From an uncultured Methylobacillus sp. (lineage in GTDB: Bacteria; Pseudomonadota; Gammaproteobacteria; Burkholderiales; Methylophilaceae): a stretch of DNA of 64,000 nucleotides. Made by a program: the position numbers and the translations under genes. The notes under the pieces were generated by a model. The model worked only from the letters and a program-made list of their open reading frames with translations. It had not been told where the DNA came from and did no database searches. Of this stretch, positions 46,199-64,000 are shown one piece after another. The DNA is taken from positions 1 to 64,000 of the forward strand of contig CAMLDO010000002.1 of NCBI GenBank assembly GCA_946478865.1, read 5' to 3'. Every line of letters begins with the position of its first letter. The first letter of the stretch is position 1.

Positions 46199-46249
46199 TC
46201 GATCAGCCTACCGGCCGCCGATGACAGTCATACGCGGCCGCATAGTCCG

Positions 46250-46955: not shown

Positions 46956-47621
46956 TTGAAAAAACCAAAAACCATCACCGCCAGACTGCCGCGCTTCGCA
47001 CTCTACCTGCTGATCTCACTCAGTTTCTGGGCGAGCGGCGCACTGCTGCCGGACGCCGCCACGCTGGCCCGCGTACGCGAAAAATTCGGCGAGCCGGCAG
47101 CCGAACGGGTTCGCAACTGGGGCGAAGTCATGCAGCGCGTGCGGCCGCTGGAGGAACTGGCGCAACTGGAAGAAATCAATCGTTTCATCAACCAGACCCC
47201 CTATGTCGATGACCAGCAGCAATGGGGCACGCCAGATTACTGGGAAACCCCGCTGGAACTGCTGACACTGAACGGCGGCGATTGCGAGGACTACGCACTG
47301 GCCAAGTATTTCACGCTCAAATCGGTGGGCGTGCCCGAGGCCAAGCTACGCGTCACCTACGTCAAGGCATGGCTGCCCAAGGCCAGGCGCATGGAGCCGC
47401 ACATGGTGCTCACCTACTACGCCACGCCGGACGCCGAGCCACTGGTGCTCGACAACCTGCGCCCGGGAATCGATCTCGCTTCTCACCGCACCGACCTTGT
47501 TCCCACCATGAGCTTCAACGCTGACGGCCTGTGGGCCGCCCGTCAGCGCGGCCAGAACGGGCGGCTGGGAGATACATCCAGCCTGGGGCAATGGGTGGCG
47601 ATGATGGAGCGGATGAACTAG
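46956..47621 (+). CDS. LapG-like transglutaminase-type cysteine peptidase
   Basis: A 221-residue exported protein. An N-terminal hydrophobic segment (ALYLLISLSFWASGALL) precedes the bacterial transglutaminase-like cysteine peptidase domain, with C110 in NGGDCEDYALAK, H149 in EPHMVLTYY and D166 in LVLDNL. The best-known member, LapG, cuts large surface adhesins in the periplasm under c-di-GMP control through LapD. The start is TTG at 46956; no better in-frame start is seen. It lies alone on the plus strand, and its stop overlaps the XrtH stop in CTAG. Confidence 0.85.
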   Translation: MKKPKTITARLPRFALYLLISLSFWASGALLPDAATLARVREKFGEPAAERVRNWGEVMQRVRPLEELAQLEEINRFINQTPYVDDQQQWGTPDYWETPLELLTLNGGDCEDYALAKYFTLKSVGVPEAKLRVTYVKAWLPKARRMEPHMVLTYYATPDAEPLVLDNLRPGIDLASHRTDLVPTMSFNADGLWAARQRGQNGRLGDTSSLGQWVAMMERMN

Positions 47622-48133
47622 CGCGCCACAGGAGCAGCACGCCCCGCGCGCTCCAGCCACCAGAAGAAATACCCGGCGCTCGCCGCCACGATCAGCACCG
47701 GCCCGAGCACGCCATGCAGCAGGTCGAACCACTCGCGGCTGTAGCGAAACGAGAAATACAGCGCTGCGATGCGCGCCTGATTGAGCAGGAATATCAGCAG
47801 CAGCCCACCGGCCATGCCAACCAGAGCACTTCGCCAGCCTAACCCTGCAGCCGCAAAAGCCGCCACCAGAAGGATCATCGCATCCGCGCCGTCGCAGCCG
47901 GTGCGCAGCGACAATCGCACGCCGGGAGCGACAATACTGCCCTTGTCCCCTGCGACCTGCTCGTTGGGAGAAATCAAGTTGACCAAGGCAACCACCGGCG
48001 CCAGCGTCACCTGGTCAGTAAAAACCTGCCGCCAGCGGCTTTGCTCGCCAGTGAAATAAAGGTATTGCAGTACCAGGAACACCAGCGCGAACAGCACGCC
48101 GCTGCGCAGCAGACGTCGATGCAATAGGCTCAC
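47618..48133 (-). CDS. xrtH: Exosortase H (IPTL-CTERM type)
   Basis: A 171-residue inner-membrane protein, short like other XrtH proteins. The catalytic set is C80 in LRTGCDGADAM, R121 in NQARIAALY and H140 in DLLHGVLGP. XrtH is the exosortase paired with IPTLxxWG-CTERM substrates. The S8 protease at 44039-46198 is the only such protein in the window. Its gene lies 24 bp after the coiled-coil gene, at the end of the two-partner-secretion operon, not next to the protease. Confidence 0.88.
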   Translation of the reverse strand: MSLLHRRLLRSGVLFALVFLVLQYLYFTGEQSRWRQVFTDQVTLAPVVALVNLISPNEQVAGDKGSIVAPGVRLSLRTGCDGADAMILLVAAFAAAGLGWRSALVGMAGGLLLIFLLNQARIAALYFSFRYSREWFDLLHGVLGPVLIVAASAGYFFWWLERAGRAAPVAR

Positions 48134-48157: not shown

Positions 48158-48838
48158 TTACTTGGCCGGCACCGGCAGCTTTTCGGCATAGGCGCGGTCC
48201 TCGTATTCCTGGAACAGGTTCTCGATCTCGACCTTGCCCAGTCCGAACAGTGGCTCCCTGGCGAATAAGGCATCATTGCGTTGACGGTCGATGACTTCAC
48301 GCGTTACCCCGTAAAGTTTACGGTTCTTGTCCTGGCAAGCGGCGGTCTGCTTGCCGCTCAACTCGAGGCTTTTTTCGAGTGACAGCTTTTCACCCTGCAA
48401 GCCTTTTTTCTCGGCCTGCGTCTCCGCAAGCCTGTCGCCAGTTTCTCCCAATCGCTGCTCGGTCTCCGCCAGTTTCTGCTGCAGGCTCTCACCGGCCTGC
48501 AAAGCCGACTGGGTTTCCTGGCGGCAAGCCTGGAGAGCGGATTCATGCTCGGTACGTTGAGCCTGCAACTCACCCTCCAGCGACTTCTTGCTGCGGCTTA
48601 GCCGTGCAACCGTGCTTTCTGTCCCAGCTGCAGCCGCTTCGAGTTCCTTCACTTTTGCGGCAAGCGTGGCATTTTCCTGCGCCAGCGCATCGCGCTCCGC
48701 CGAAACCTGCTGAATCTGCTGCTGCATGCGGCGCTGCAACTGCTTTTCGCGCTTGCTGGTCTTGCCCTCTTCAGCATGGGCGGTCAGGGAAAAAGCCAGT
48801 GCCAATGACAGCACTGCCGTCAACATCCTGTTCATCAC
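48158..48838 (-). CDS. Periplasmic coiled-coil protein
   Basis: A 226-residue protein. The signal peptide (MLTAVLSLALAFSLTAHA) is followed by an almost continuous heptad-rich coiled coil (residues about 25-170) with many Gln, Glu and Leu. A short folded-looking C-terminal part (YGVTREVIDRQRNDALFAREPLFGLGKVEIENLFQEYEDR) follows. No enzyme motif is seen. A strong AGGAGTGG Shine-Dalgarno sequence precedes the start. Its position after TonB and the porin suggests a periplasm-spanning scaffold for that machinery. Confidence 0.75.
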   Translation of the reverse strand: MMNRMLTAVLSLALAFSLTAHAEEGKTSKREKQLQRRMQQQIQQVSAERDALAQENATLAAKVKELEAAAAGTESTVARLSRSKKSLEGELQAQRTEHESALQACRQETQSALQAGESLQQKLAETEQRLGETGDRLAETQAEKKGLQGEKLSLEKSLELSGKQTAACQDKNRKLYGVTREVIDRQRNDALFAREPLFGLGKVEIENLFQEYEDRAYAEKLPVPAK

Positions 48839-48845
48839 GCCACTC

Positions 48846-50468
48846 CTAGAATTTCGCGTTCAGATCAACCAGCAGCACGTCGATGCCCAGCGGGGGACCG
48901 CTGATTTCATCGGCACTCAGCCAGCGCGCGGAGAGCCAGGTATTCTTGTCGAGGCCGTAGTTCGCCCCCAGGATCCAGCCCTTGGAATCGGTCCCACCCA
49001 GGCGGAAATCGGAGTCGGTAAAGGCATCCAGCACAGCGTCGGCTTCGAGGCGCTTGTAGGACCCGAAGACCTGCCAGTCATGACGTTTCTCGACTTTAGG
49101 CATACCAACGGTCAGGCTGACCTGATAGCCTTCGTTCTCCTGTTCAAGAGTCAGGCCTGTACGACGCAGAATTTCCTGTTTGTCGAAACCTAGATTGCGA
49201 ACATAGTCGGCCGTCAGAATCACGTGCACCGGATTGAACATGGCCAAATCAACCTGGCCAGTCAGGTTGAATTCCCGGAACTTCGAGGCAATGCCGCAAG
49301 GACCGCCTTCATCACACGAGCCTTCGTCGAAGTCCGGATCATTCACGGCCACATCAAGCGCATCGATGTCGAACATATGGTTACCCTTGTTGCGGAAGCT
49401 CAGCCCTGTATTCGAAAACTCAAAGGATTGAAGCGGATTTGACGTTCCTTCGACATTTTTGAAGTCATACAATGCCGCAGCAAATTTCACGCTGGAACCA
49501 CCCGAGGCTGTCCATTGCAACCCGGCCTGCCCACCCAGCATCCATTTGTCGCGTGCCTTGTTGAACTCGCTTTTTTCCTGCTCGTCGAGAGAAAAAGCAC
49601 CGAGCGTTCCGAATGCGGTAATCCGTTCGCCCAGCTTGGGCTTGAAGCTGGCGGCGACACCGTCGAATGCGAGATCCGGATCCCACACCAGATCGGTGGA
49701 AAAGTAAGGATTTTCGATACGACCGCCAGAAACGGTAGCCCAGGATGTGGGCGTCATGCGCAAATAAGCGCGGTCGAGTGCGAACGAATATTTGCTGCTC
49801 TGCGTTTCAAGTGTCTGGTTCGGAGAAACAGGGTCGGCGTCGTTACCGGTCGTCATGCGAATCCCCGCATCCAGCCAATCGGCGAGACGCATCTTGGCTC
49901 CCAGGCGTGCACGCACCCGGAAACGATTTCGGTCCTCAGTAGAATTGGCAATGCTCGTGTTACCGGGGTCCTGATCATAGAAATCGTTCAAGGTCAGCAC
50001 GTCGGCGTTGCCTTCGGGAAAGCTGTTCATTTCATACCGCAGACGCAGATCGCCTTCCCAAGCAATACGATCCAGCCAATCAGGCAGACTGCCCGGGGTC
50101 GCCCAACCTTCGCTTTGCGCCTTGGCCATGACTTCTTCGCGAATCTCGTCGCGCAATTGCTTCTTGACGTGCTCCGGAACGTACTGGACACGTACCGTCT
50201 TGCCGCTCCCCGTCTCCTCTGTTGTGCCGGAGGCTTCATTCGCCTGCGAGGCTACCTTGGCGGACTCTGCCTGCTGCACGATCGCCTGCGCTTTGTCCTT
50301 GGACAGCACACCTTCCTGCACCAGCAGCTCAATCAGGCTCAGCGTCGTTGTACGCAGCTGCTCCAGCGACTCGCGCTCGCCTGCGGTTGCCGGCGCCGTG
50401 GCCGTAGCCAGACAGCCTGCGGCTGCGAGAGCAATCAGCAGCGGCTTCAGTCGTCGTTCAGTCATCAT
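48846..50468 (-). CDS. Putative outer-membrane porin with N-terminal coiled segment
   Basis: About 540 residues. A signal peptide (KPLLIALAAAGCLATATAPATA) is followed by a helical region (residues about 30-95) and then a beta-barrel-like run: WEGDLRLRYEMNSF, LADWLDAGIRMTTG, FALDRAYLRMTP and the C-terminal strand VLLVDLNAKF with terminal Phe. This matches a class of putative porins with a periplasmic helical stalk. The ATG at 50468 (ATGATG, GGG upstream) is preferred over 50486. It lies directly after tonB and may be the outer-membrane client of that motor. Confidence 0.78.
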   Translation of the reverse strand: MMTERRLKPLLIALAAAGCLATATAPATAGERESLEQLRTTTLSLIELLVQEGVLSKDKAQAIVQQAESAKVASQANEASGTTEETGSGKTVRVQYVPEHVKKQLRDEIREEVMAKAQSEGWATPGSLPDWLDRIAWEGDLRLRYEMNSFPEGNADVLTLNDFYDQDPGNTSIANSTEDRNRFRVRARLGAKMRLADWLDAGIRMTTGNDADPVSPNQTLETQSSKYSFALDRAYLRMTPTSWATVSGGRIENPYFSTDLVWDPDLAFDGVAASFKPKLGERITAFGTLGAFSLDEQEKSEFNKARDKWMLGGQAGLQWTASGGSSVKFAAALYDFKNVEGTSNPLQSFEFSNTGLSFRNKGNHMFDIDALDVAVNDPDFDEGSCDEGGPCGIASKFREFNLTGQVDLAMFNPVHVILTADYVRNLGFDKQEILRRTGLTLEQENEGYQVSLTVGMPKVEKRHDWQVFGSYKRLEADAVLDAFTDSDFRLGGTDSKGWILGANYGLDKNTWLSARWLSADEISGPPLGIDVLLVDLNAKF

Positions 50469-50496
50469 GTTCAACCCTTGTCTCAAAATGTTTCAA

Positions 50497-51207
50497 TCAA
50501 CCAATGTTTTTCGAGGTAATGCGCAGCTTCACCGGCTGCGGCATATCATCTGGCGGGGCATCACCCAGCTTGTTCAGTCCGTTGAGCGTCTTCCTGATTA
50601 GCGCATCGATCTCGGCATTGCCGCTGGAACCTTGCAATTCGGTCTTATCGATGTGCCCGTTCGGCGCCACCCAGACATGAACGACCAAGCGGTATTGCGC
50701 ATTGGCCAACCCTTTCTCGGCAGCCAGTGCGTCTTCGATCTGCGTTTTGATCTGGCCGGTAAACCAGGCGAACGCCGCCATGCTTTTCTTGCCCCCAATC
50801 TTGGTGCTAACTTCTCCGCCCTTGTAATCATTGGTCACCGGCCCCGCACTGAACGGGCTCGGCCCATCCCCAGCCGGGCCTTCCATCTTCAGCGCTTCGG
50901 CCGGAGGCTGCGGCGCTTCCTGCGGCTTGGGCGGCTCCACTTTCATTTCCTTGGGCTGCTCCTTGGGTTGCTCTTTCGGAGGCTCCTTGGGCGGGGGTGG
51001 CGGCGGAGGCGGTGGCGTGTCCGGCAGAATCTTGATCTTGGTTACGGCCGGCTTTTGGGGGGCGTGTGGCTCGAACAGGCCTTTCACTGCAAACCACAAG
51101 CCATAGAGTCCACCCAGCACGACCAGCCCCAGAACGATCCGCTTGAGCCAGACCATTTTTTCCGACGGCACGGGATGGCCGTCAGGCATCATCGCCATCT
51201 CGCTCAT
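50497..51207 (-). CDS. TonB-family energy transducer
   Basis: A 236-residue protein. One N-terminal membrane helix (IVLGLVVLGGLYGLWF) is followed by a Pro-rich spacer (nine Pro in a row, then PKEQPKE-type repeats). The C-terminal TonB-like domain contains YRLVVHVWVAPNGHIDKTELQG and ALIRKTLNGL. It transmits inner-membrane proton-motive energy to an outer-membrane partner. It starts on the last base of the ExbD stop (TGATG), so it is coupled to its motor. Confidence 0.85.
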   Translation of the reverse strand: MSEMAMMPDGHPVPSEKMVWLKRIVLGLVVLGGLYGLWFAVKGLFEPHAPQKPAVTKIKILPDTPPPPPPPPPKEPPKEQPKEQPKEMKVEPPKPQEAPQPPAEALKMEGPAGDGPSPFSAGPVTNDYKGGEVSTKIGGKKSMAAFAWFTGQIKTQIEDALAAEKGLANAQYRLVVHVWVAPNGHIDKTELQGSSGNAEIDALIRKTLNGLNKLGDAPPDDMPQPVKLRITSKNIG

Positions 51208-51611
51208 CAGGTGCCGATCCTGGCCGTGACGAGGCCCACGTTTTCGATTTCAAGTCGCGTAACGAGATCGACCACGGTAATGACGCCGGCATAAGGCGCT
51301 TGCGCATCGCCCTTGATCATCACGGAAAACTTGGGGTCACGCGCCTTCGCGGCCTTGAGCTGGCTTTCCAGCTCGGGCAGGCTCACGCCGACGCCGTTGA
51401 GCAGCATCCCGCCACCCTGCTGTACCTGCACGATCTTGACCTCGTGCTTCTCGGTACTGGGCTTGTTGGAGGGCTTGGGCAGATTCATGGTCAGCCCCTG
51501 CACGCCTGCCGTCGTCATCAGGATGAAGATCACCAGCAGCACATAGGCCAGGTCCAGCATCGGCGTGATATTGATGGTGTCGTAGGGCTGCGAATCGTTT
51601 TGTACTTGCAT
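51207..51611 (-). CDS. ExbD/TolR-family motor protein (second copy)
   Basis: A 134-residue protein with one membrane helix that carries the essential Asp in TPMLDLAYVLLVIFILMTTA and a periplasmic ExbD domain (KIVQVQQGGGMLLNGVGVSLPELESQLKAAKARDP). It lies 3 bp after the first ExbD gene, which it resembles closely in the membrane part. Two paralogous ExbDs next to one ExbB suggest a hetero-dimeric ExbD inside the ExbB pentamer. Confidence 0.88.
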   Translation of the reverse strand: MQVQNDSQPYDTINITPMLDLAYVLLVIFILMTTAGVQGLTMNLPKPSNKPSTEKHEVKIVQVQQGGGMLLNGVGVSLPELESQLKAAKARDPKFSVMIKGDAQAPYAGVITVVDLVTRLEIENVGLVTARIGT

Positions 51612-51614
51612 CGC

Positions 51615-52025
51615 TCAGGTTTCCTCTCGCTTGGTCACCAGACCGATTTCGCTGATGCCCAGTCGCTTGCAGATTTCCAGCACTTCGGAGACCTTTTCGT
51701 AATGCGCGGCGGCATCGCCCTTGAGCACCACGGGCAAGTCCGGATTGCCCTGCTTGAACTCGCCGAGACGCTGTTCCAGCATGGCCATATCCACCGGATA
51801 GGCGTCGAGATACACCGTGCCGTCGCTGGTAATCGTGATCGCGCGCATCTGCGGCTTGGCGAGCGCGGCCGTCGCCTGCGTGTGCGGAATTTCGACCTTG
51901 ACGCCCTGCACCGAAGCCGTGGTCATGATGATGAAGATCACCAGTAGCACGTAGGCGAGATCGAGCATCGGCGTGATGTTGATCTCGTCGTAGAGCTGGT
52001 TGTCTTCCTTGATGCCTTCAGACAC
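51615..52025 (-). CDS. ExbD/TolR-family motor protein (first copy)
   Basis: A 136-residue protein. The membrane helix carries the proton-handling Asp in TPMLDLAYVLLVIFIIMTTA. The periplasmic domain includes TSDGTVYLDAYPVDMAMLEQRLGEFKQGNPDLPVVLKGDAAAHY. It lies 11 bp after the ExbB gene. N-terminal YDEINITPMLD is nearly identical to YDTINITPMLD in the second copy, while the periplasmic domains differ, as expected after duplication. Confidence 0.88.
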   Translation of the reverse strand: MSEGIKEDNQLYDEINITPMLDLAYVLLVIFIIMTTASVQGVKVEIPHTQATAALAKPQMRAITITSDGTVYLDAYPVDMAMLEQRLGEFKQGNPDLPVVLKGDAAAHYEKVSEVLEICKRLGISEIGLVTKREET

Positions 52026-52036
52026 GCTTCAGCTCC

Positions 52037-53701
52037 TTATTTGCCGTGCAGCTCGGCCACGCGGGTCACAAACTCATCCACGAAAATCTGCATTTCGATG
52101 GTGATGTTCTTGATGCGGCTGGCGAGGTAGTTGTAGCCGAACAGCGCGGGAATCGCGACGCCCAAACCGGCAACAGTAGCCAGCAGAGCTGCTGCGATAC
52201 CCGGTGCAATCGCGTTGACGTTGACGTCCCCTGCCGCGGCAATCGCCGCGAAGGTGATCATCACGCCCACCACGGTACCCAGCAGGCCGAGGAAGGGACC
52301 GCCGGAAATCGCGATGGTCAGCAGCACCATCTTGCCGTTGATGCGCTGATTTTCGCGCACCAGGTCAGCATCGATCGCCGCCTTGATCGCGTCCATGGAA
52401 GCACCGCTCAAGGCCAGCGCCTCGCCCGCTTTCTCACGTTTGCGAATCTCGCGCAGGCCCGCCATGTAGAGCTTGAACAGCGTCGAGCTCGGCAGGTGGG
52501 TGCCCTTGTCCAGTTCCAGCAGGTCATGACTGGCACTCTGGAAACGATTGAGGAAACTGCGGTTGTCCTTGTCGGTCTTGGAGACCAGGCGCGCCTTGGC
52601 GATCATCACGCCCGCGCTGATCGCGAACATCACGGCCAGGATGGCGATGACGATCTTGGCGTCCAGCGTCAGGCTGTTGATGAGGATGCTCATGTAGGAG
52701 GCTTCGCCGCCTTCTTCACCCTCCTCCCCCTCGGATGCCTGCACCACGAGCAGCGGGCTGTCGGCGCCTTGGCCGACAGCGGCCAGCTTGATCCAATCCG
52801 CACTGCGGCCGGCGGAAGCAAGCTGAAGCTCGTCCATCTCGCCGGTATAACCTTCGCCAACGATGACTTCCGACTGCGTATCGGCCAATGCCACATCGCC
52901 ATTGCCGACCGGCTTGCCGTCAACATAGAGCGTGACCTTGGCTCCATCGATCACGGCAGCGACGTGCTGCCATGCTGCCGCCTTGAGTTCGCCCTCAGCT
53001 GCCACCGTGCTACCGGAAACCAGTGCCAGCTTCTGGCCGTCGATCTTGACAGCCAGGCCGCCCTGACGATAAAGCACCGCCTGCTGCGGAAGTGCAGCAG
53101 GCTTGATCCAGGCGGAATAGCTGAAGCCGCTGGCAGAGCCGACCTTGAGTGCCGGCGATGCGCCGATGCTGATCGGCGTGCCGTTGAATACAGCCGCCTC
53201 GCCCAGCAGCGCGGCCTTCTGTACAGTCACCGTGCCGGTCGCGGTCAGCCCATTCGCCGCATCCTGCAGCAGCGTCTTGTCGGCAAAGTGGAAAACAGCA
53301 GCGGTAGCGGCATCCCACGGCTTGCTTTCAGTCGGTGCGGATGCAGCCTCGTTGCCATAGTAAATCCAGAAGTGCGCGTCCTTGGCGGCCGGATCGACCT
53401 TGGGCAGTTGCACCCAGAGCACGGCCAGCTCGTTGACGGAATCATATTTTTCAATCTGGAATTTCAGTTCGGTCTTGTCGTCGGCCGCCACGACGCGGAT
53501 ATCCGAGCCGTCGTCCTTGGCATCCAGAAAGCTGAAATTGCCGCTATGCAGGCGTACTGCCACCGGCACATCGCTCGCCGTCGCTCCTACCGCCTGCGCA
53601 TTGACCACTACCTTGCTGCGCGCGGTCCATGCCTCGTTCCATTGCGCATGGGAAATCGCCGGCAACAGCAGCAGCGCCAGCAGCAACCATCTTTTCATCA
53701 T
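52037..53701 (-). CDS. ExbB/MotA/TolQ proton-channel protein with N-terminal DUF2341/LamG-like domains
   Basis: About 554 residues, far longer than ordinary ExbB (about 240). A signal peptide (LLLALLLLPAISHA) precedes a DUF2341-like domain (WNEAWTARSKVVV ... FWIYYGN) and a LamG/concanavalin-like domain (FSYSAWIKPAALP ... VTLYVDGKPVG). After an acidic linker (SEGEEGEEGGEA) come a membrane helix, a cytoplasmic loop and the MotA/TolQ/ExbB core (GPFLGLLGTVVGVMITF; APGIAAALLATVAGLGVAIPALFGYN). This topology puts the lectin-like part in the periplasm on top of the motor. The ATG at 53701 follows a GGGGTGAAG Shine-Dalgarno sequence. Confidence 0.88.
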   Translation of the reverse strand: MMKRWLLLALLLLPAISHAQWNEAWTARSKVVVNAQAVGATASDVPVAVRLHSGNFSFLDAKDDGSDIRVVAADDKTELKFQIEKYDSVNELAVLWVQLPKVDPAAKDAHFWIYYGNEAASAPTESKPWDAATAAVFHFADKTLLQDAANGLTATGTVTVQKAALLGEAAVFNGTPISIGASPALKVGSASGFSYSAWIKPAALPQQAVLYRQGGLAVKIDGQKLALVSGSTVAAEGELKAAAWQHVAAVIDGAKVTLYVDGKPVGNGDVALADTQSEVIVGEGYTGEMDELQLASAGRSADWIKLAAVGQGADSPLLVVQASEGEEGEEGGEASYMSILINSLTLDAKIVIAILAVMFAISAGVMIAKARLVSKTDKDNRSFLNRFQSASHDLLELDKGTHLPSSTLFKLYMAGLREIRKREKAGEALALSGASMDAIKAAIDADLVRENQRINGKMVLLTIAISGGPFLGLLGTVVGVMITFAAIAAAGDVNVNAIAPGIAAALLATVAGLGVAIPALFGYNYLASRIKNITIEMQIFVDEFVTRVAELHGK

Positions 53702-53776
53702 TTTTTCTTCACCCCAAAACAAACGGCACACTATAAAGAGCCGATATTTCGGCCCGGTTAAATAATTGGTATACGA

Positions 53777-53798
53777 CGGGCAGGAAATACCCTGCCCG
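53777..53798 (-). terminator. Hairpin between the exoprotein and ExbB genes
   Basis: A perfect 8-bp stem CGGGCAGG/CCTGCCCG with a 6-base loop in the 110-bp gap after the exoprotein stop. On the minus strand no U tract follows, so a full terminator is unlikely. It may protect the upstream mRNA end or lower expression of the motor genes. Confidence 0.5.
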
Positions 53799-53810
53799 CG
53801 TTATGCCGCA

Positions 53811-56800
53811 TCAATCGCCCAGACCGATAACCTCTACGGAAACGAGCGCCGGCATGAAGTTCTGCGGCAGCAATGGGTTCGTCGCGGCATCTGCGACCTG
53901 CTTGGCGACCTCTTCAGACGCAGAGCGAGTGGCTTCAGAACCGACGTTGCCAATGCCTGCCGTGGCAGCAAGACTGCTGGTGTCGGCAGCCGGAGCCCCT
54001 GTCACATTATTTCCGTCCAGTCCACCGAGGCCGATCACGTCTTGCGTAACCAGAAGGATCTCGCCGCCGCCCACGCCAGCCTCGCCCAGATCAAGGATGC
54101 CGCGTGGAGCGATCAGCGTAACCTTGCCCAGCTCCGGTGCCTGCTTGCTGCCATTGGGGCCATCCGGATCATATGTTTGGGCCCGGATACCGCTACCCGA
54201 AGCCGCGCCCTTCACTTCGACGATGGTATTGCCGTCCTTGTCGGTACTCACTACGCGATCGGGGACCGAGACAGCCGTCTTGGAACCACGCCCAGCGTCG
54301 ATATCACCGTTGTTGACCCAGACCGTGATATCGCTGCCGTACTGCGTGATGACCTTGGATTGCTCCACTTGGAAACCGTCCTCGGCAAACACGCGGATAT
54401 CGCCCCCCTTCTCGGTAACGATACCGATCTCGTTACCTGAAGAGCTGGGTACGCCGACGTTGACCAGGCCTCCCGGTGCGAGGATGTCGATGCTGCCGTT
54501 CTTGTAGGTGCGGATCTGGCTGTTGTAGAGCGACAAATCGCCGCGATAACCTCTTTCTTTCGGGAACATCGAGGCAATCGCCGTATCGCCACGCTCGTGA
54601 TTGCCTGTTTCCGGGAAGGCTGCGCCGGAAGCAGCCAGTTCGGAGGACAAGTGACGATATGCAAATACCGCCTTGCGATCGGCATCCAGCGCGAGATACT
54701 GCGTCATGGCCTCTGCTTCACCGAGATGTTCATTGCCGGTTAGTCCGCGCATGTAGGTCGCTACAGCTTGCGCAGTTTTGCTGCGGTAATCGGCCAGATC
54801 CTCTTGCAATGTCGAAGGACCACTGCCTGCGGGATCGATATAGGTACTCACATAGCCATCCACGTTGGCGCCGCTGCCCCCCGCGCCGGCAAGAACCGTG
54901 ATCGAGGCTCCGTTTTCAGGCAGGTTGGAGTTTTCAGTATTAGCGGTCGTCACTATCCCCTGGCTGGTGCCGAGGCTGACATGCCTGCCTGCTTCGACCA
55001 GTACCTCGCCGGGACCGGCTATGCGTATTTGCGAGGTCGAGTCGAGCGGCATTTTGAGATCGCGCCCGGCCTTGATGACAGTCATGTCATGGCTACGCAA
55101 TTGCTGAACACTGGCATTCAGAAAAACATCTTTGCCCGCACTAATATAGGCGGCCTTGGCGGTGGTTAACCCAGGCTCAAGCTTTATCGACCCATCTCGA
55201 GCGACGATTGCTACCGGCTCATCATCACCTAGATGCACGGGCGTTGCGGCATGGTCACTTCGGATTGCCTTTAAAACAGTTGCATTCAGAGTGTTAGGCT
55301 GATTAAGTTTGTCTACGAAATGCCTTTCTACGGAAGGTAATAAAGCAACATCGGCATCCGACACCGCAATCAGAGAGGTACTGCTTCTGGCTGAAATATC
55401 TCCAGCTGCAAGGAGACGCAAATTCCCATCTTCGTCCGGAGTCAATGTCATACGCCCGGCATTGATGTTCCCATCAAACGCAATAGCCTCTACCGTCCCT
55501 GGCATAATCGATAAGGTCTCGGCAAGAGCCAGATTGTTCGTACCTGAAACCAGATCATTGGTAATTTTAGTTGTCGCGCTATATCCAAGTGTGACGTCAC
55601 CAGTCAGCGATGCAGTCCGCACAGCGCTATCGCTACCATAGGTGAGGTAATATGCGTTGCTTCCGGTGTCATCTCCTGTTTTGGCATTGGCTGTGACTTG
55701 TGCCCACATAGTGGGATTGAATACCGTTTCGATATAAGCGCTGCCAATGGCAGTTACCGAAGCACTAGCATCCTGTAACGCAAGCGTAGTGCCAAAAGAA
55801 GTGGGGTCGGATTTGATTTCGCCGCGAGAGAAGAGGCTGATGTCACCTTTACCCGCGTAGTACACACCACTGACAATATCGCCTCCCGCATTGACAATTA
55901 CATCGCCACCACCTTGCAGGTTGACGTTGCCATTACGGTCATAGCGCGCAGTTGTGGGAGTTGAAACGGAGAAATTAGAAACCTTACCGCCAGCACTCAC
56001 TGTAATATTGCCGCCACCAAATGCCGCCACCCCCTGGCGGAACAAATCCGGCTTCACCCACCAGCTAACTGTTTTATCCGTGCTGTTCGTGCCTTGGCGG
56101 TACAGCCAGTGATTCACCAGTTGTTTATTACCGGAGGCCGGAAGCTTACCGAGGATATCCTTCACCACACGGATTTCGATGTCGCCACCATCGGTCAGAT
56201 AGCTGGACGACTTGGCAAAGCTTCCCCATGCATCTGCTTGATGTCCTCCGGTGTAGATCACCGTGTTCTCGTTCTTCATGTCGAGATTGCCACCCGCCGC
56301 GATACGAATATCGCCCGTTCCGGTACGCACCCCTTCAGGCGCCGTGGACGTGCTGGTCGCCGGCATGATCACACTGCCGGCAGAGTTGGTCGCCATCATG
56401 CTGGCTGCGTTGAAATCAGCGCCGGCAACCAGGTTATAGCTCCAGGAATTCCCGCCTTCCTGGGCGTTAGCGTTGCCGATGCCGAAGTTGAAGCTGGTTC
56501 CACTTACCGAGAAACCATCATTGAGCGAGCTGTTGAGGTTGAGGTTGTTTGAGGCACGCAAGGTCAGCACGCCTGCCAGCAACGGATGTCCTTCACTGTC
56601 TACGCCCGAGTTCAAATTGGTGGCTGTCGTGACGCCGACGCCAGTATCACCATCGAAGCGCCATCCCTGAAGCGACCAGTCGTTCGCCAGGGCAACATCG
56701 CCGGCAGTATTGCGTATTTCGAGACCGGGGACGATCGTGAACAGCGGATCGCTCTTCTTACCGAGGCGATTCAGGCCGGCCGTGGCCCCCGTCAGCGCAC

Positions 56801-59800
56801 TCTTCATGAAGGATTCGGCTTCCTTGTACCAAGTGCCGGTGGTTGCCACATCGGCGGAATTGATGCTGTTGTCGGCGTATGCCTTGAAGCCTTCAGCACG
56901 GATTGCCGAGGCGCCCTGCACAGTCGCTGAAACAGCCGTTATCTTAATGTCCTTGTTATCGCTGGTACGCGGCGCACGCAAGCGAAGCTCGCCGCCCTTG
57001 CCACCAACGCCGCCGCTGACATCAACCTGGGCTCCGGACTGCAGGTCAAGATAACCGTTGCTGGTTGCGATTTCGACCGTGCCGCCTTCGGCGCCTGCCT
57101 CGCTGCTGGAGGCAACGAGCTGTGCGGTGGAATTCAGCGTGACGCCATTGCCGCCATAGAGGCCAATGACACCCTTCTTGTCTGCAGAAGCATCGATCTT
57201 GCCCGCCACGTTGAGGTTACCGGCATCGGCACTGATCACCACCTGTTCTGCCTTCACGCTATCGTCGGCTGTGACGCTCACATCGCCGGTACGAACACGG
57301 AACTCGCGCGACGCATTGAAACCGCCATCGTTCAACTTGTCATTGATCGCTCCGAAGTCGGCTTGGGAAGCCACATCCAGCGAGAAGCGACCGCTGTCTC
57401 CGCCTTCGCTGCCTCCTTTTCCGACCAAGCTGCCATCGACTGTCGCGGCCCCCGAAGCGGCAGTCAGGGTAATGTTGCCGGCACTCGCATCCCCTTCGCC
57501 GCTGACATCCACTACAGCACCGGCGTCGACGCTGATATTGCCGCTGTCGGATTTGAGCGTAACGGCACCGCCAGGCGTGTATTCGACATTCTTGTCAAAC
57601 GCAGTTGCGATGGACCGAGTACGTACGATGGCGCCATTTGCCACGGTCAGGTCGCCCGATGTCGCCTGGGCGGTAAAGTTGCCCGAGGGCATGTCTACCG
57701 TGCCGCCCAACGTGAGATCGGCAGCCGCGACCGTGACTTTTGCGCCCAGTCCTTGCGCAGCCTTCAGCACGGCCATATTGGCAGCGGATGCCGAAGACAG
57801 GCTGCCAGTAGCTTTCAGCGTGTAATCAGCGCCAGTTGCCGCCGTCATGCGCGTGCTGGAGATATGGGTCTGCTGGGCATCGATGGTCGTGGTACCGCTG
57901 CCGCTGAAGATCACCTCCTTGGCAGCAGCCAGCTTGACCTGTTCGAAACCGCCGATGGTGGTGCTGGTCGAGGCGGCTCCGCCGACCAGTGCAATGTTCT
58001 GGGCCTCGACATTCAGAGCGCTGCCGCTCGCCGCGGTTGTGGTTTCGTAGACAGCGCCGAGAGTATTTTTCAGGGTGAAGTCGCGAGCCGTCAGCGTTGC
58101 CGCTTCATTCGTCTCCATATGCCCAGCGATTCCGGCAGCATTGATCGTAAGATCCAGATCCTGTTTGCCCAGATTGACCGGGCCGTGAATATCGACGTTC
58201 TTGTAACTATTGAGAGTCACACCAGAAAGCTCGCCGAAGCTGTCCAGCAATGCATCGCTGACATGCAAACCGCTGACTGAGGCATCCGCTTCGCCCAGCA
58301 CAATACGGTTCGCTCCCAGTGTCACCGTACCGTTGTCAGCAACATTGATATTGCCTTCCAGGTTGGACACTGAAGTCGAATCGAGTACCAACGAGCGTGC
58401 CGCCGACACCTGCGCGCCGCTTCCGATCGATAAGGTACCCGCGCTGCTGCTCGCGCCAGTACGTTCAAATTGCAGATCGTTGCGCGAGGAGATCGCCAGC
58501 AGCGCACCTGCTCCTTGCGTACCAAGCTTGCTCGCTCCCGGCGTCCCTGTTGCTGCCAGGGTTTCGATTACCGAGCCATTTTTTACAGTAAGGGTATCGT
58601 CGGCTATCGCGATCAGCTCGTTCACCTTGAGAGCATGATCGGCATCGTTGTCGATGACGACACTGCTTGCCGTAGTAGCGATGCTGTAGCCATCGTCCGT
58701 CTTGGTGCGCTGGCCACCTAACAACAGGCTCTCGGCATTCAGCGCATTGAGCGAGCCTGCCGTCAGCTGGAGCGTGCCATCGTCAACGCCCGTTTCAGAA
58801 ACGACACTGATCTTGTCGGAAACGACATCGACCAGCGCGCCACGCGCATCCCCGGACGTGGTCGTAACAATCGACGCGTTAAGCGCAAGGCTGTCGCTGG
58901 CGGCAATCGTCAATTGCCCCGCATCACTGGCTAGACGCGGAATATCCTTGCCGGCATCTTTGGCGAGCTGGCTGAAGTATTCGTTGCCGCTTGTCAGCAG
59001 ATATTGGGAAGGCGCCTTGGATACTTCACCTTCCGCCGTATGGAAAATGTTGCCGGAAGTCACCTTGAAAACGCTGTTGAGCGAATCGCGCGAACTGCCA
59101 TTGAGACGATAGCCGCTGACCAGCGAAGAGCCATCAGCCTGCGCGATACTGGCACCGAGCGCCATCGAGTTTCCGCTGGTCGCCTGCACCATGAAAGCGC
59201 CCGGAAGCAGCGCATAACGCGCAGGCAGCAAGGTATAGGTTCCTTCTGCCAGCCCAGGGATACCGGAAAGGAAGACCGAATCGCCTACCGTGATATCGGT
59301 ACGTTCACTGCCGGTGTAATTACCGCTCGCATCGACGTCGCGTGCCAGCGAATAGTTGTAATCGTATGGGGCGAAACCATCACGATAGTTCGGCAATACG
59401 GCATATACGCCAGGTTGCCCCAGAATATCGGTAGAGCCGCCTATACCCTCGATCCACTCGTATGCCAGAAGGTCTCCGCCACCTGACACATCCACTGTAG
59501 CTCCGGCCTGCATATCCACGTTGTCGGAAGACAGCTCTACCTTTTTCTCGGGCGGAGTCGTGGGATTATTGAGCGTGCTGGCATCAATACTAGCAGTGGG
59601 ATCGTCCCACAGCAGACCGCCCAATGCGGTCATGCCATATGGAATCAGCATGCCCTTGGCAGATACGGAGGTCAGGCTGCCGGATAACAGGGTCAGGCTA
59701 TTGGCGGCATCGAGCGTGATCTGACCCATCGGAGCCAGCAGCGTGCCACCCTGAACAATGTCATCGGCCTGCAAGGTCAGGCGGCCTCCGGCCGATAGCA

Positions 59801-62800
59801 CCGAAGGTTGCGCCTGTCCGTTCTGCCCGATTTCGATACGGCTGTTAGGGCCGGTCGCTTTCAGCAGGTAGCGGCTATTGGTGGCCGGATAAATCTGGCG
59901 GGCGTTGAGTGCAAGCGTTCCTGGCGTGGCAAAAGTGCCCTGCACCGTGGCGGCCTTGCCGCGCACGCGAATGTCTTTTTGTGCAGACAATGTCGTCTTG
60001 TCGACACCGGACACGCCCATATTGCCTACAACATCGATGTATTGTGCGTTGACCACCAATTCGCTATCGCCTGCTACCGGTGTCGCGACATCGCTGCCAT
60101 CGGTTCCCAGTCTTACATAGGTGGAAGCGAGCGTTGTGGTGCCGCTGCCCGACACTTCCAGGTTGGCAGTGCGGATGGCCAATGCATCCTGAGTCTTGAG
60201 GTTCACGTTATCGGCGAGAACCACCTTGTCGCCAGCGATATTGCGGTCGGCGTCCAGCGTCGCCCTGCCGAAACCGGCCTGAGCAATCTGATCGGCCGCG
60301 ACCGAGGCACTGCCAACCAGACTGGTAACGTCATCTCCCGCTTGCAGTCCGTCTGCCAGAAGTTGCTTGTGCTGTGTGACGGTAAGCACGCGACTGCCGT
60401 TGGGGTTGCCTTGGCCGCTGGTATCCTCGGCGCCATCGAAACGCAGAGTCAGGCTGCCATCCACTCCGGTACCGGAAGCGGCTGCGTGCATGTCTCCATC
60501 GAGGGCCATGCCGTTACGTGAGGTAATGCTGATCTGCCCGGCATCGCCATGCAGGGTTTGGCGCTGGAAAGCAGACCCATTTTGCACATCGGCAATGCCG
60601 GATGTACCGGAAACATCGAGCAGGCTACCTTCCTTGAGTACAACAGTGGCTACTTCTCCGCCATTGATCTGGATACTGCCGGCGTCCCGCACTTCGGCAT
60701 GAATTCGGCCGTCGCTGGACGGCGTACGCATATAGCTTCCCGCCGTGCTCAAGGTGGCGTTTTCACCGACATACAGGCTCAGCTTGCCGTCATAAGCTTG
60801 AGTGTTCAGCTTACGGGTTACTCCAGCCTGGATAGTGCCTGATGGGGCGATCACATCACCCAGCAGAGTCATCTGCCCGTAGGATTGCAGGGAAAGGGCT
60901 CCTCCCTTGCCGACGCCGGGCTTGTCGGTACGTATGGTCGCGTTTTCCGCCAAGGTCAGCGAACCTGCGGATTCAAATGCGACAGAGCCAGCCTCGCGCT
61001 GGTACTCGGCCGGCACGATGCGATTAGCCACCTTTGCGATATCGGTTCCGTTTGCATGGTTGCGATAGTCATTGGTCATGACCAGCTTTTGGGCTGTAGG
61101 CTTGATGGTCGTTGCGGTACCTGCCGTATCGCCAATCAGGATATTCGAGGTATCCAAACTGGTTTTGAGGGTGTAGCCGGAGAATCCGCCCTGCCCAAAG
61201 AACGTCTCTGAGAGCCAAAAGGTATTTGGCGCTGTCGGTCGTATGCCGCCGGCCTGCAAATTATCGGCTGTCATCAGAGAAAGACTGCCGCCTTTACCGA
61301 ATCCGTAGGCTAACAAGGCGGTACCGTCCAGGCTGCGTACCCCTTCCAGCGTTACGCTACCGCCATCACCACCTTTCACCTTGCCATCGGCCTTGACCCA
61401 TGCGCCGGCATCCGCAGCGATGGACACTCCGTGCCCCAAGGTCAGGCCACCCTCGCTATCGACTTTCATCAGCAGACTGACATTGCCGCCATCGAGCGCC
61501 ACTGCACCTGTTCCTGCGCCCGCCGCCCCCTGGAAATCATTGGTGTACAAGCCTGAGGCATCGATGGATACGCCATCCGCCACCTGCATCGTACCGGCCG
61601 AAAGCGTAATGTCGCCGCCCGGGGCGACGATATCTGCATTCACGGCCATATTGCCCGAGGTCGTCAGCGAAACAGTGCTATCGGGCGCAGCGCTGATGGC
61701 TGCATCCACATTGATAGCACCGCTGTAGGCATCCAGCTTGACGCTGGTAAATCCGTTGGAGAACAAATCTGTGCCGATTTGCACCTCGTCTCCCTGCAGC
61801 AGACTGCCTTGGGCATATTTACCGGTGCTCTCGTCATACTCGCCGACGGCCATGAAGTCGTCAGCGAGGGAGGTCGTGATGTTGTCCACGATACTGATAT
61901 TCGGCACATGGACAGAGGTCAACAATTTGAAATCGAAACTTCCGCCGCGGGGCATGCTCTCCCGCTGCCGGGTACCAGGCTTGGTGTTGGCTCGGAACGT
62001 GCCGTTGAGCGCTGAATCCGTGGTGGAAATACTTACGCTGCCTGCGGCGCTTCCGTCTGTGTAGGTATCGTTGTATTGCCCCAGACCACCTCCCAGCGAC
62101 CAGCTGCGGGTTACCCCCCACTTCTTGTTAGTTTGGCTGTATTCATCGGCGAGGCCGCTATAGAGGGTATTGCGATCAGCATCGGAGACTGCGATTTTTC
62201 GGCCCTTGTAAAGCACCTGACTCTCGCGGATGTAGCCGCCCTCGTAGGTGATGCTGCCGCCGGAAACATCCACTACGGCTCCGGACTGCATGACGACGTC
62301 GCCACGCTCGGCATTCAAGGTCACGGTACCGCCAGTCGACATTCGCTCGGCGATGGTCTGGCCTTTCAGATTTGCGGCGGCGGCGAGAGCATCGTCCGAA
62401 ACAAGCGCGGTCCCCTTGCGCTTGTCAACGTAGATGGTCTTGCCGACCCAGTCGGTTCCTCGCAGCAGCGGGGTATCCTTGAGTTGCTCCGAGAACAACT
62501 GGATGGCGAGCTGATTGCTATCCATGCTGGTGGTCGCATCCACGCCGGAAACGTCGATCGATGCGTCATCACCCAGATGAATGCGCGTTGCATTCACAAT
62601 GGAATCCACCGACGCGCCATCGCTCGGTACCATGGGATTGAATGCGGCTGTCGCGCTGACATTGCCGCCATGCGCGATGATGCTGCCATTGATATCGATG
62701 ACACCGCCGCTCATTTCCACGTAGGACTTCTTGACCTCCTGCGTGCCCAGCACTTTTTCCGGATCGGCGGTTTCGACGGTGACTTCCGTTACACTGTTCT

Positions 62801-63797
62801 CGCCGATAGTCAGCACGCCGCCGCGCTGCGCATCCAGATCGTAAATCGTCTCTCCATTCGCAGGACTCGAAGTAACCTTCGCAGTATCACGAGCCAGCAA
62901 GCGTATAGAACCGTTGGCACGCACCGAAGTGCTCGCGGAAATGCGTCCTTGTTGATTGACCGCCAAGCCCACCAAGGTAACGTTGCCCCGTTGAGCCACG
63001 ATCTCGCCAAGGTTGGTTGCCGTACCGCCAGAGTTGACCTCGACCAGCAAGCCCGCAGGGTCGTCACTGGCCAGCAGGTAAACGCTTTTCCCTGCCGCAA
63101 GGATAGTCTGCCCGTCAGGAGTGTTGATGACGCCGCTATTGGTCACATCCGGTGCCAGCAGCATGACTCGGCCGCCAGTGGCGGTAGTGATATTGGCGCC
63201 ATGGTCGACGCGGACAAATCCACTCGTGCCAGAGAACACCGGAAGGTTGGGATTGGACAGGATGCCCGCTTCAAAAAGCGCATCCGTTACATCCAGACTG
63301 CTTGCGGTCAACGATCCGACATTTACCTGCGCCCCATCGGCGAAAATGATGCCGTTGGCATTGATGAAATAGAGATGCCCGTCTGCCTTGATCTGGCCGG
63401 CGATTACACTGGGGGCCTCATCATAGATCCGGTTGAGTGCGGACCAGCTGCGATTGCCATTCTGGTCGAAAATCAGCGACTCGCCTTTGTTCAGGTTGAG
63501 CTTGCTCCAGTTAAGGTAGGCCTTCGATGCCGTCTGTTTGATGGTCATCTGCGTGGCGCTGGTGCGCGCCGCATCGATATTGGCATTCGTCCAGCCGCGG
63601 GTGGCATGGGGAATCAATCCGCCAGGAGCAGCCAGAGCCATCTGTACCGATCCGGCAAGTATCAGTGCGATCCATTTGCGATAGCTGCGTATGCGGCTGC
63701 CCGAGCTCTTGCAGGTGTGGCTGCGCGCAGCCTCGGAAACGGGGACGAGCATCCCCAAGCGTTTGCTGAAAACCAGTCGATAGATTTGCTTGTTCAT
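53811..63797 (-). CDS. Giant filamentous-haemagglutinin-like two-partner-secretion exoprotein (TpsA)
   Basis: 3328 residues. An extended signal peptide of the ESPR type (MNKQIYRLVFSKRLGMLVPVSEAARS, then IALILAGSVQMALA, cleavage near 56) leads into the TPS secretion domain (about 57-330), with NANGIIFADGAQVNVGSLTASS. The body is a long Gly/Ser/Thr/Val-rich beta-helix with recurrent VDVSG units. The C-terminal 250 residues (GDIDAGRGSKTAVSVPD ... IRAQTYDPDGPNG) resemble DUF3739 of FhaB-like proteins. A GGGGTGA Shine-Dalgarno sequence precedes the start. The TpsB gene lies directly upstream. It probably acts as a surface or released adhesin. Confidence 0.9.
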   Translation of the reverse strand: MNKQIYRLVFSKRLGMLVPVSEAARSHTCKSSGSRIRSYRKWIALILAGSVQMALAAPGGLIPHATRGWTNANIDAARTSATQMTIKQTASKAYLNWSKLNLNKGESLIFDQNGNRSWSALNRIYDEAPSVIAGQIKADGHLYFINANGIIFADGAQVNVGSLTASSLDVTDALFEAGILSNPNLPVFSGTSGFVRVDHGANITTATGGRVMLLAPDVTNSGVINTPDGQTILAAGKSVYLLASDDPAGLLVEVNSGGTATNLGEIVAQRGNVTLVGLAVNQQGRISASTSVRANGSIRLLARDTAKVTSSPANGETIYDLDAQRGGVLTIGENSVTEVTVETADPEKVLGTQEVKKSYVEMSGGVIDINGSIIAHGGNVSATAAFNPMVPSDGASVDSIVNATRIHLGDDASIDVSGVDATTSMDSNQLAIQLFSEQLKDTPLLRGTDWVGKTIYVDKRKGTALVSDDALAAAANLKGQTIAERMSTGGTVTLNAERGDVVMQSGAVVDVSGGSITYEGGYIRESQVLYKGRKIAVSDADRNTLYSGLADEYSQTNKKWGVTRSWSLGGGLGQYNDTYTDGSAAGSVSISTTDSALNGTFRANTKPGTRQRESMPRGGSFDFKLLTSVHVPNISIVDNITTSLADDFMAVGEYDESTGKYAQGSLLQGDEVQIGTDLFSNGFTSVKLDAYSGAINVDAAISAAPDSTVSLTTSGNMAVNADIVAPGGDITLSAGTMQVADGVSIDASGLYTNDFQGAAGAGTGAVALDGGNVSLLMKVDSEGGLTLGHGVSIAADAGAWVKADGKVKGGDGGSVTLEGVRSLDGTALLAYGFGKGGSLSLMTADNLQAGGIRPTAPNTFWLSETFFGQGGFSGYTLKTSLDTSNILIGDTAGTATTIKPTAQKLVMTNDYRNHANGTDIAKVANRIVPAEYQREAGSVAFESAGSLTLAENATIRTDKPGVGKGGALSLQSYGQMTLLGDVIAPSGTIQAGVTRKLNTQAYDGKLSLYVGENATLSTAGSYMRTPSSDGRIHAEVRDAGSIQINGGEVATVVLKEGSLLDVSGTSGIADVQNGSAFQRQTLHGDAGQISITSRNGMALDGDMHAAASGTGVDGSLTLRFDGAEDTSGQGNPNGSRVLTVTQHKQLLADGLQAGDDVTSLVGSASVAADQIAQAGFGRATLDADRNIAGDKVVLADNVNLKTQDALAIRTANLEVSGSGTTTLASTYVRLGTDGSDVATPVAGDSELVVNAQYIDVVGNMGVSGVDKTTLSAQKDIRVRGKAATVQGTFATPGTLALNARQIYPATNSRYLLKATGPNSRIEIGQNGQAQPSVLSAGGRLTLQADDIVQGGTLLAPMGQITLDAANSLTLLSGSLTSVSAKGMLIPYGMTALGGLLWDDPTASIDASTLNNPTTPPEKKVELSSDNVDMQAGATVDVSGGGDLLAYEWIEGIGGSTDILGQPGVYAVLPNYRDGFAPYDYNYSLARDVDASGNYTGSERTDITVGDSVFLSGIPGLAEGTYTLLPARYALLPGAFMVQATSGNSMALGASIAQADGSSLVSGYRLNGSSRDSLNSVFKVTSGNIFHTAEGEVSKAPSQYLLTSGNEYFSQLAKDAGKDIPRLASDAGQLTIAASDSLALNASIVTTTSGDARGALVDVVSDKISVVSETGVDDGTLQLTAGSLNALNAESLLLGGQRTKTDDGYSIATTASSVVIDNDADHALKVNELIAIADDTLTVKNGSVIETLAATGTPGASKLGTQGAGALLAISSRNDLQFERTGASSSAGTLSIGSGAQVSAARSLVLDSTSVSNLEGNINVADNGTVTLGANRIVLGEADASVSGLHVSDALLDSFGELSGVTLNSYKNVDIHGPVNLGKQDLDLTINAAGIAGHMETNEAATLTARDFTLKNTLGAVYETTTAASGSALNVEAQNIALVGGAASTSTTIGGFEQVKLAAAKEVIFSGSGTTTIDAQQTHISSTRMTAATGADYTLKATGSLSSASAANMAVLKAAQGLGAKVTVAAADLTLGGTVDMPSGNFTAQATSGDLTVANGAIVRTRSIATAFDKNVEYTPGGAVTLKSDSGNISVDAGAVVDVSGEGDASAGNITLTAASGAATVDGSLVGKGGSEGGDSGRFSLDVASQADFGAINDKLNDGGFNASREFRVRTGDVSVTADDSVKAEQVVISADAGNLNVAGKIDASADKKGVIGLYGGNGVTLNSTAQLVASSSEAGAEGGTVEIATSNGYLDLQSGAQVDVSGGVGGKGGELRLRAPRTSDNKDIKITAVSATVQGASAIRAEGFKAYADNSINSADVATTGTWYKEAESFMKSALTGATAGLNRLGKKSDPLFTIVPGLEIRNTAGDVALANDWSLQGWRFDGDTGVGVTTATNLNSGVDSEGHPLLAGVLTLRASNNLNLNSSLNDGFSVSGTSFNFGIGNANAQEGGNSWSYNLVAGADFNAASMMATNSAGSVIMPATSTSTAPEGVRTGTGDIRIAAGGNLDMKNENTVIYTGGHQADAWGSFAKSSSYLTDGGDIEIRVVKDILGKLPASGNKQLVNHWLYRQGTNSTDKTVSWWVKPDLFRQGVAAFGGGNITVSAGGKVSNFSVSTPTTARYDRNGNVNLQGGGDVIVNAGGDIVSGVYYAGKGDISLFSRGEIKSDPTSFGTTLALQDASASVTAIGSAYIETVFNPTMWAQVTANAKTGDDTGSNAYYLTYGSDSAVRTASLTGDVTLGYSATTKITNDLVSGTNNLALAETLSIMPGTVEAIAFDGNINAGRMTLTPDEDGNLRLLAAGDISARSSTSLIAVSDADVALLPSVERHFVDKLNQPNTLNATVLKAIRSDHAATPVHLGDDEPVAIVARDGSIKLEPGLTTAKAAYISAGKDVFLNASVQQLRSHDMTVIKAGRDLKMPLDSTSQIRIAGPGEVLVEAGRHVSLGTSQGIVTTANTENSNLPENGASITVLAGAGGSGANVDGYVSTYIDPAGSGPSTLQEDLADYRSKTAQAVATYMRGLTGNEHLGEAEAMTQYLALDADRKAVFAYRHLSSELAASGAAFPETGNHERGDTAIASMFPKERGYRGDLSLYNSQIRTYKNGSIDILAPGGLVNVGVPSSSGNEIGIVTEKGGDIRVFAEDGFQVEQSKVITQYGSDITVWVNNGDIDAGRGSKTAVSVPDRVVSTDKDGNTIVEVKGAASGSGIRAQTYDPDGPNGSKQAPELGKVTLIAPRGILDLGEAGVGGGEILLVTQDVIGLGGLDGNNVTGAPAADTSSLAATAGIGNVGSEATRSASEEVAKQVADAATNPLLPQNFMPALVSVEVIGLGD

Positions 63798-63809
63798 GCC
63801 GTCACCCCG

Positions 63810-64000
63810 TTACCATTCGTATCCCACGCGGAAATCCCAGCGGGTATCGCCGCTTTCCACCTCGCCCGCATCACTCAAGGCCCTCGCGTAATCCAGCGTG
63901 CCCAAAACCCCTCGCCAACCCTTGATCTGCAATCCGGCGCCGATAGATGCCAACTTGAAGTGTTCGGTTTCTTCCGGCAGCGGATCCTCTACCCATGCAT
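63810..64000 (-). CDS. TpsB outer-membrane transporter (FhaC/ShlB family), C-terminal end
   Basis: Partial: the last 62 or so codons of a minus-strand gene that continues beyond the window. The reading has LASIGAGLQIKGWRGVLGTL, DYARAL and the ending DTRWDFRVGYEW. These are the last barrel strands of FhaC-type transporters, with a terminal aromatic residue. The stop lies 12 bp upstream of the exoprotein start, the usual tpsB-tpsA order. It should export the 3328-residue protein across the outer membrane. Confidence 0.8.
   Translation of the reverse strand, partial: AWVEDPLPEETEHFKLASIGAGLQIKGWRGVLGTLDYARALSDAGEVESGDTRWDFRVGYEW

Follow-up and report, generated by a model that had tools for sequence, protein, structure and literature searches.

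Exoproteins of two-partner secretion (TPS) systems are regarded as needing no energy source, and the accepted task of TonB is to gate plugged receptors. What, then, does a Ton motor do when it is encoded, together with a porin, in the operon of a TPS exoprotein? The question is raised by a locus in a 64,000-nucleotide stretch of DNA (the window; contig CAMLDO010000002.1, assembly GCA_946478865.1) from an uncultured Methylobacillus sp., in which a transporter gene (tpsB) and the gene of a giant exoprotein (tpsA, with a DUF3739 domain) are followed by exbB (with a DUF2341 domain), two copies of exbD, tonB, and genes for a Porin_5 porin and a coiled-coil protein (Table 1). New here are the near-obligate partnership of DUF3739-type TpsA, DUF2341-ExbB and Porin_5, and an adjacent gene of phosphate-binding type in relatives. 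The operon itself can be assigned firmly to the pdt-type TPS-Ton-porin loci, of which it is a betaproteobacterial variant.

The partnership was examined in 200 genomes evenly drawn from the order of G001 (the Methylobacillus genome of locus L011) and in 349 genomes of the phylum, with the module genomes G001, G055, and G164 common to both samples. In the order sample, DUF3739 was found in 22 of the 200 genomes; among the matches listed, DUF2341-ExbB with its N-terminal domain was likewise found in 22, and the two occurred together in 21. Full-length Porin_5 marked the identical 21 genomes, while TPS domains were present in 91. Three genomes showed one marker only, all at contig ends: in G141, DUF3739 lies on the minus strand at bases 398-727 of the contig and no ExbB was listed, where a short fragment may have escaped listing, G058 has ExbB without DUF3739 on a contig 3482 bases long, and the Porin_5 copy of G088 is cut by the contig start. 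Distant, partial Porin_5 matches (26-84 bits) occurred in five genomes of this sample. In the phylum sample, DUF3739, the ExbB N-terminal domain and full-length Porin_5 fell in the same 11 of 349 genomes; in G475 the ExbB domain is truncated at a contig end, and exbD, tonB and the porin follow it. Partial ExbB matches only, mostly to the LamG region and at ≤56 bits, were seen in 54 other genomes, and there were five distant Porin_5 matches outside the 11 (19-108 bits). Results from 72,556 plasmid records were similar, in that ExbB and the porin at ≥80% coverage marked the same 11 records, all of which also matched DUF3739-type TpsA; this TpsA type was also found in five further records without ExbB or porin at that coverage. 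Fisher tests on co-occurrence ignore the relatedness of the genomes. The nearly one-to-one co-occurrence of the three markers in both samples bears out the co-conservation that a preliminary description of the window had set as a check.

Gene content around the motor tells the same story. We annotated 85 loci with iterated hidden Markov models (HMMs), comprising the window, four plasmid stretches and 80 genome contigs, the last being the best 80 DUF2341-ExbB loci from a longer list (one genome scanned per species). Among these, exbD was called in 85, tonB in 82, the porin in 77, the coiled coil in 71, and tpsA and/or tpsB in 78. Of the seven loci without a tpsA or tpsB call (L004, L005, L030, L050, L060, L066, and L075), four are contigs shorter than 8 kb, and the plasmid of L004 carries tpsA and the porin elsewhere. 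The porin was missing from L004, L017, L039, L040, L063, L068, L070, and L082, all of which except L004 are contigs that end shortly after exbD or tonB. Co-occurrence in samples and loci thus places the Ton motor, porin and coiled coil with this exoprotein, as had been proposed, and it is strongly supported that the operon's parts work as one unit. In G460 the module was seen split, with exbB-exbD-tonB on one contig (L149) and tpsA facing the coil, porin and tpsB on another (L150).

The same kinds of parts are already in print. The VreI regulon of Pseudomonas aeruginosa is listed in published work as including PA0690 (pdtA), PA0692 (pdtB), PA0693 (exbB2), PA0694 (exbD2) and PA0695 (tonB4), together with PA0696 (a putative outer-membrane porin), PA0697, PA0698 (YbjN) and PA0699 (PpiC). 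The region from phdA to PA0701 is reported to be transcribed from one promoter, PhoB to be required for the VreI regulon (PUMA3), and homologues of TPS, ExbBD and PA0696 to be associated in six other genomes of other genera (a report of 2009). Since PA0690-PA0699 had been published with the same kinds of parts, the combination in the window is not new, and the suggestion that it is not a described system has to be withdrawn. According to published tables, the order from exbB to PA0697 is that of the window, which differs in having two exbD genes and the order tpsB-tpsA-exbB. A Pseudomonas locus, L147, also has an ExbB with DUF2341 and LamG, in the order tpsB-exbB-exbD-tonB-porin-coil-ybjN-ppiC. 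This comparison is one of gene order and domains, made through L147 (named through its ExbB) and the published tables rather than PAO1 sequences, and the coiled-coil protein is matched to PA0697 by position only. YbjN and PpiC were not found in the window (phmmer, Klebsiella queries) and occur in 2 of the 85 loci; FecR or sigma genes of the VreAIR type were likewise not found in the window, whose edge excludes the region upstream of tpsB. VreAIR-like genes (STN/TonB-like, sigma, FecR-type) occur alongside the module in Methylosinus, Burkholderia and Variovorax (L002 at 10604-13860, L168 at 9655-12185, also L171, and L172 without a sigma call). On the Klebsiella plasmids L003 and L167 the module stands with YbjN and PpiC genes, in L003 also with sigma/FecR regulators, and is annotated with general names (filamentous hemagglutinin, ExbB, TonB, putative porin). 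The Ton system of the P. aeruginosa locus is termed 'still uncharacterized' in the published text available, and in the accessible parts of open-licence papers we found no report on what the Ton motor of this locus does.

A clue to that role comes from a neighbouring gene. A gene of the DING/PstS type, or a divergent phosphate-binding-like one, adjoins tpsA or tpsB in 22 of 25 sampled module genomes, these being the 29 module genomes less G124, G150, G179, and G199, whose tpsA frames are cut by contig ends. In the window, its position lies past base 64000. The gene was found in 15 of 17 order-sample genomes (none in G144 or G164) and in 7 of 8 further phylum-sample genomes, a biased count inasmuch as the seven positives were chosen for prior PF12849 matches and G398, which has none, was taken without such a match. 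It was also present in all five of G002-G006 and in none of 20 control stretches (~20 kb each, from six of the genomes). For the order sample, 14 stretches upstream of tpsA were taken regardless of an earlier PBP_like_2 match and G172 came from a separate set; earlier PBP_like_2 signs had been weak and adjacent in G020, G043, and G146, and 13 kb off in G055.

The partner takes two forms. In gammaproteobacterial-type and Burkholderia loci it is DING/PstS-like, with PDB matches to DING proteins and their phosphate-binding relatives (E 4e-137 to 3e-117); all 10 members of this group match the PstS model TIGR00975, the score shown being 78.4, below the cut-off of 205. In betaproteobacterial-type loci, a protein of 420-560 residues (alignment A5) precedes tpsB, and 10 of its 23 members match PBP_like_2 individually at E ≤ 0.1 (best 2.5e-7). 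The A5 profile has its best PDB match, at E 1.7e-6, in a periplasmic component of phosphate transport, its comparison with the DING-type alignment A6 in hhalign gave 92.5% over 102 columns, and an HMM made without the eight most divergent members recovered seven of them (all except L001) at E ≤ 1e-3. Because relatives carry this partner, the likely role of the locus shifts toward phosphorus acquisition. Upstream of the gene in order-sample loci, 8 of 10 open reading frames (ORFs) matched PEP-CTERM at E ≤ 0.01, and five of these exceed the curated cut-off; these ORFs include L197:4443-5252, L198:4105-5019, L199:4717-5673, L203:4315-5223 and L208:5165-6028.

Regulation in Pseudomonas also enters this argument. 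Published work places PdtA, PA0696 and PA0698 among the P. aeruginosa proteins that phosphate limitation enriches most; LapA and LapB (PA0688 and PA0689, numbered just before PdtA) are likewise induced. Under the same limitation, P. fluorescens SBW25 is reported to secrete the DING-family protein PFLU2427 and the next-numbered large exoprotein, PFLU2428. Seven Methylophilus-type loci (L033, L034, L036, L037, L038, L039, and L047; identified by Pfam in L037 and by homology in the rest) contain, in the interval between tpsA and exbB, a protein with LTD and endonuclease/exonuclease/phosphatase-family domains, a PEP-CTERM protein and a 5'-nucleotidase, and in L037 the nuclease-family protein and the 5'-nucleotidase both have RTX repeats. 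What weighs against a role in phosphorus acquisition is that searches with library families found no alkaline phosphatase within 25 kb on the same contig in the 29 module genomes. For this reason alkaline phosphatase is not counted as support, even though it lies near the locus in L004, L072, and L083; the first queries for it were biased, having been drawn from genes seen beside the loci. PhoX occurs within ~15 kb in 3 of the 29 module genomes (G055, G011, and G164, the last a weak match of 53 bits).

The proteins themselves were examined by domain searches and models. In TpsA, Pfam places an ESPR signal, the TPS domain at residues 69-300 and DUF3739 at residues 3154-3268, and Foldseek with a model of the C-terminal part returned no match at E ≤ 0.001. 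The extreme tail is predicted to be disordered (predicted local distance difference test <50 at residues 331-349 of the model) and contains a short motif in which V342 and G348 of alignment A4 are nearly invariant (27 sequences); a loose pattern of this motif fits 116 of 128 tails, and 25% of tails still fit it after shuffling. ExbB matches DUF2341 (47.2 bits), Laminin_G_3 (56.3 bits) and MotA_ExbB (96.2 bits), and its best NCBIfam match is TolQ, under the TolQ cut-off; a 2025 stator paper, as far as its available text goes, names DUF2341 merely as an additional domain with no known function. TonB reads as a hydrophobic N-terminal stretch, a proline-rich spacer and a TonB_2 C-terminal domain, and its match to GltJ, at residues 16-119 and covering the proline-rich part, scores far below the cut-off (25.3 bits against 450). 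The predicted structure of the porin has N-terminal helices ahead of a 16-stranded barrel resembling Veillonella OmpM1 (PDB 8bys, titled outer membrane attachment porin), its closest solved structure at 16% identity. Porin_5 is its sole Pfam match at E ≤ 0.01, with no SLH or other wall-binding domain. The phosphate porins OprP and OprO rank below OmpM1 in the match list, among general porins, and so we make no claim that it is a phosphate porin.

How might these parts act together? The best-supported reading of the role is phosphorus capture and uptake, as gene neighbours and regulation in Pseudomonas would suggest; that the locus is a dedicated phosphate-starvation machine for surface capture and uptake, with its own Ton motor, is a reading we hold tentatively, as a good possibility. 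TPS exoproteins in general fold outside the cell as a beta-helical fibre. TpsB would export the giant TpsA to the cell surface, where the fibre and its phosphate-binding-like partner may capture phosphate, or molecules that contain phosphorus, close to the cell. The ExbB-ExbD motor, working through TonB, would drive the OmpM1-like porin, probably by contact with its periplasmic helices, and the captured substrate would enter the periplasm. A precedent, described in a review, is HxuCBA of Haemophilus, where a TPS exoprotein acts with a TonB-dependent uptake step in heme acquisition. It differs in that HxuC is a TonB-dependent transporter, whereas here a porin with a modelled 16-stranded barrel and the motor are encoded alongside the exoprotein; none of the operon genes that the window covers, which stop short of the region before tpsB, encodes a TonB-dependent transporter.

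The motor could instead act on the TpsA fibre itself, if the C-terminal end of TpsA (DUF3739 and the disordered tail, whose short motif is beta-strand-like) remained at the outer membrane or beneath it and TonB gripped it, directly or through the porin and coil, so that the fibre is retained, tensioned, retracted or released. Consistent with this, the motor tracks the C-terminal DUF3739 domain and not the N-terminal TPS domain: among the 91 genomes with TPS domains, DUF2341-ExbB appears among the matches listed in 20 of the 21 with DUF3739 and in 1 of the 70 without (21 rather than 22, since G179 has DUF3739 and no TPS hit). A disordered tail that nevertheless keeps a conserved motif resembles linear binding motifs, and one motor may serve several TpsA proteins, as G398 has three DUF3739 hits and one ExbB. 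We consider this explanation doubtful, because the placement of the TpsA C-terminus is itself inferred, the loose motif pattern fits many shuffled tails as well, and the phosphate-binding-type partner is left unexplained. It is unlikely that TonB, via the porin helices or the TpsA tail motif, mechanically pulls or cycles the 3300-residue fibre and so reels in phosphorus-loaded binding proteins or polymers; if this were true, the fibre would serve as a 'fishing line' powered by protons, and TonB would have a use beyond receptor gating.

The likeness to an attachment porin, the helices ahead of the barrel and the frequent coiled-coil partner would also suit a load-bearing link from the inner membrane or wall to the outer membrane, in which porin, coil, TonB/ExbB and the periplasmic LamG domain carry a dense TpsA coat and proton flow resets the link. 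Such a tether alone requires no proton motor and no wall-binding domain was matched in the porin, and we judge it quite unlikely. Very unlikely, in our view, is that the motor powers or speeds the passage of TpsA through TpsB. Uncut frames of DUF3739-type TpsA are indeed very large (~3300-5100 aa) and nearly always accompanied by the motor, but TpsA open frames of 6113 aa (G181) and 5797 aa (G082) occur in genomes with neither DUF3739 nor a listed long ExbB, and according to a review, translocation of TPS proteins and of autotransporters has been reconstituted with no outside energy supply.

Several other known systems resemble the locus in part. We know of no Ton motor alongside OmpM1. A LapG-like protease gene adjoins the operon, which recalls adhesin release by CdrA/LapG and LapA/LapG, but its relatives are limited to 1 of the 85 loci and TpsA has no C-terminal cysteine hook, since its single Cys is residue 29 of 3328; LapG-type release of TpsA was rejected on these grounds. 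In the Vibrio TonB2 system, an ExbB-type channel protein has an extra large periplasmic domain, and the TtpC domain is DUF3450-type and the system serves iron receptors; the window ExbB carries DUF2341 and LamG instead. The AglRQS-Glt gliding motor drives a surface adhesin with one TolQ-like protein and two that are TolR-like; the one ExbB and two ExbD of the window bear no more than a resemblance to this set.

Table 1. Positions of the module genes, TpsA features and adjoining genes in the window.
Feature	Positions	Strand	Basis
tpsB, FhaC/ShlB-type outer-membrane transporter, C-terminal end only (last 191 bases)	63810..64000	-	HMM match 63810-63998; runs off window
tpsA, 3328 aa giant exoprotein	53811..63797	-	Pfam ESPR 42.5, TPS 78.3, DUF3739 102.8 bits
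DUF3739 domain near TpsA C-terminus	53994..54338	-	Pfam; alignment A4; marks motor-associated TpsA class
TpsA C-terminal motif, short and conserved (final 12 residues)	53814..53849	-	Alignment A4, model
exbB, periplasmic DUF2341 and LamG (ConA-like) fused to ExbB/TolQ channel	52037..53731	-	Pfam
exbD copy 1	51615..52025	-	Pfam ExbD 96.9 bits
exbD copy 2	51207..51611	-	Pfam ExbD 86.2 bits
tonB	50497..51207	-	Pfam TonB_2 36.6 bits, cut-off 22
Porin_5 porin	48846..50486	-	Pfam Porin_5 603 bits
Coiled-coil protein, signal-peptide-like start and conserved C-terminal part	48158..48838	-	ORF; alignment
Small exosortase, outside module	47618..48133	-	NCBIfam scores; conservation
LapG-like cysteine protease, outside module	46956..47621	+	Peptidase_C93 57.9 bits

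From the partial tpsB to the coiled-coil gene, the one-strand operon of the preliminary description stands by Pfam and HMM matches (63.8-48.2 kb); its label of exosortase H for the last gene does not. Successive gaps from tpsB to the exosortase gene are 12, 79, 11, 3, -1, 10, 7 and 24 bp, the second becoming ~109 bp if exbB begins at ATG 53701, its likely true start. A scan of the window for promoters and terminators gave no clear excess over shuffled sequence, and scans for Rfam families and tRNA found none. The closest ExbB relatives among listed matches with an organism name are from Gallionellaceae, Methylophilaceae and Nitrosomonadales.

The exosortase scores below the cut-offs of both XrtH (TIGR04177, 53.1 against 86 bits) and XrtM (TIGR04300, 85.4 against 125 bits), of which XrtM is the nearest family, and above the cut-off only for the general signature TIGR04178 (47.8 against 23 bits). 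Since relatives were found in 2 of the 85 loci, the window and L009 (phmmer, E ≤ 1e-5), it was rejected as a part of the module and is regarded as a neighbour. It may form a separate unit with a subtilase (DUF11 and a weak IPTL-like C-terminal tail) and a 204-aa membrane protein, the three lying at 44039-48133; L009 has an exosortase-subtilase pair resembling that of the window. The LapG-like protease scores 192 bits with CystProtLapG, against a cut-off of 320. Further along, exopolysaccharide (EPS) genes of the XrtB/PEP-CTERM type (epsD, epsE, epsF, epsG, and epsL) occupy 36089-42670 on the minus strand, and with them are PEP-CTERM-type proteins at 40632-41126 and 43293-43868; a CAAX protease-related protein lies at 42523-43200.

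Taken as a whole, in several proteobacterial groups and on plasmids, one class of TPS exoprotein almost never occurs unless a proton motor of its own and an unplugged porin are encoded with it. For annotation, the three poorly characterised families DUF3739, the DUF2341-ExbB fusion and full-length Porin_5 form a clear unit. The locus points to phosphorus acquisition rather than to adhesion alone, and, with its partners named, the role of ExbB2-ExbD2-TonB4 in Pseudomonas becomes directly testable.

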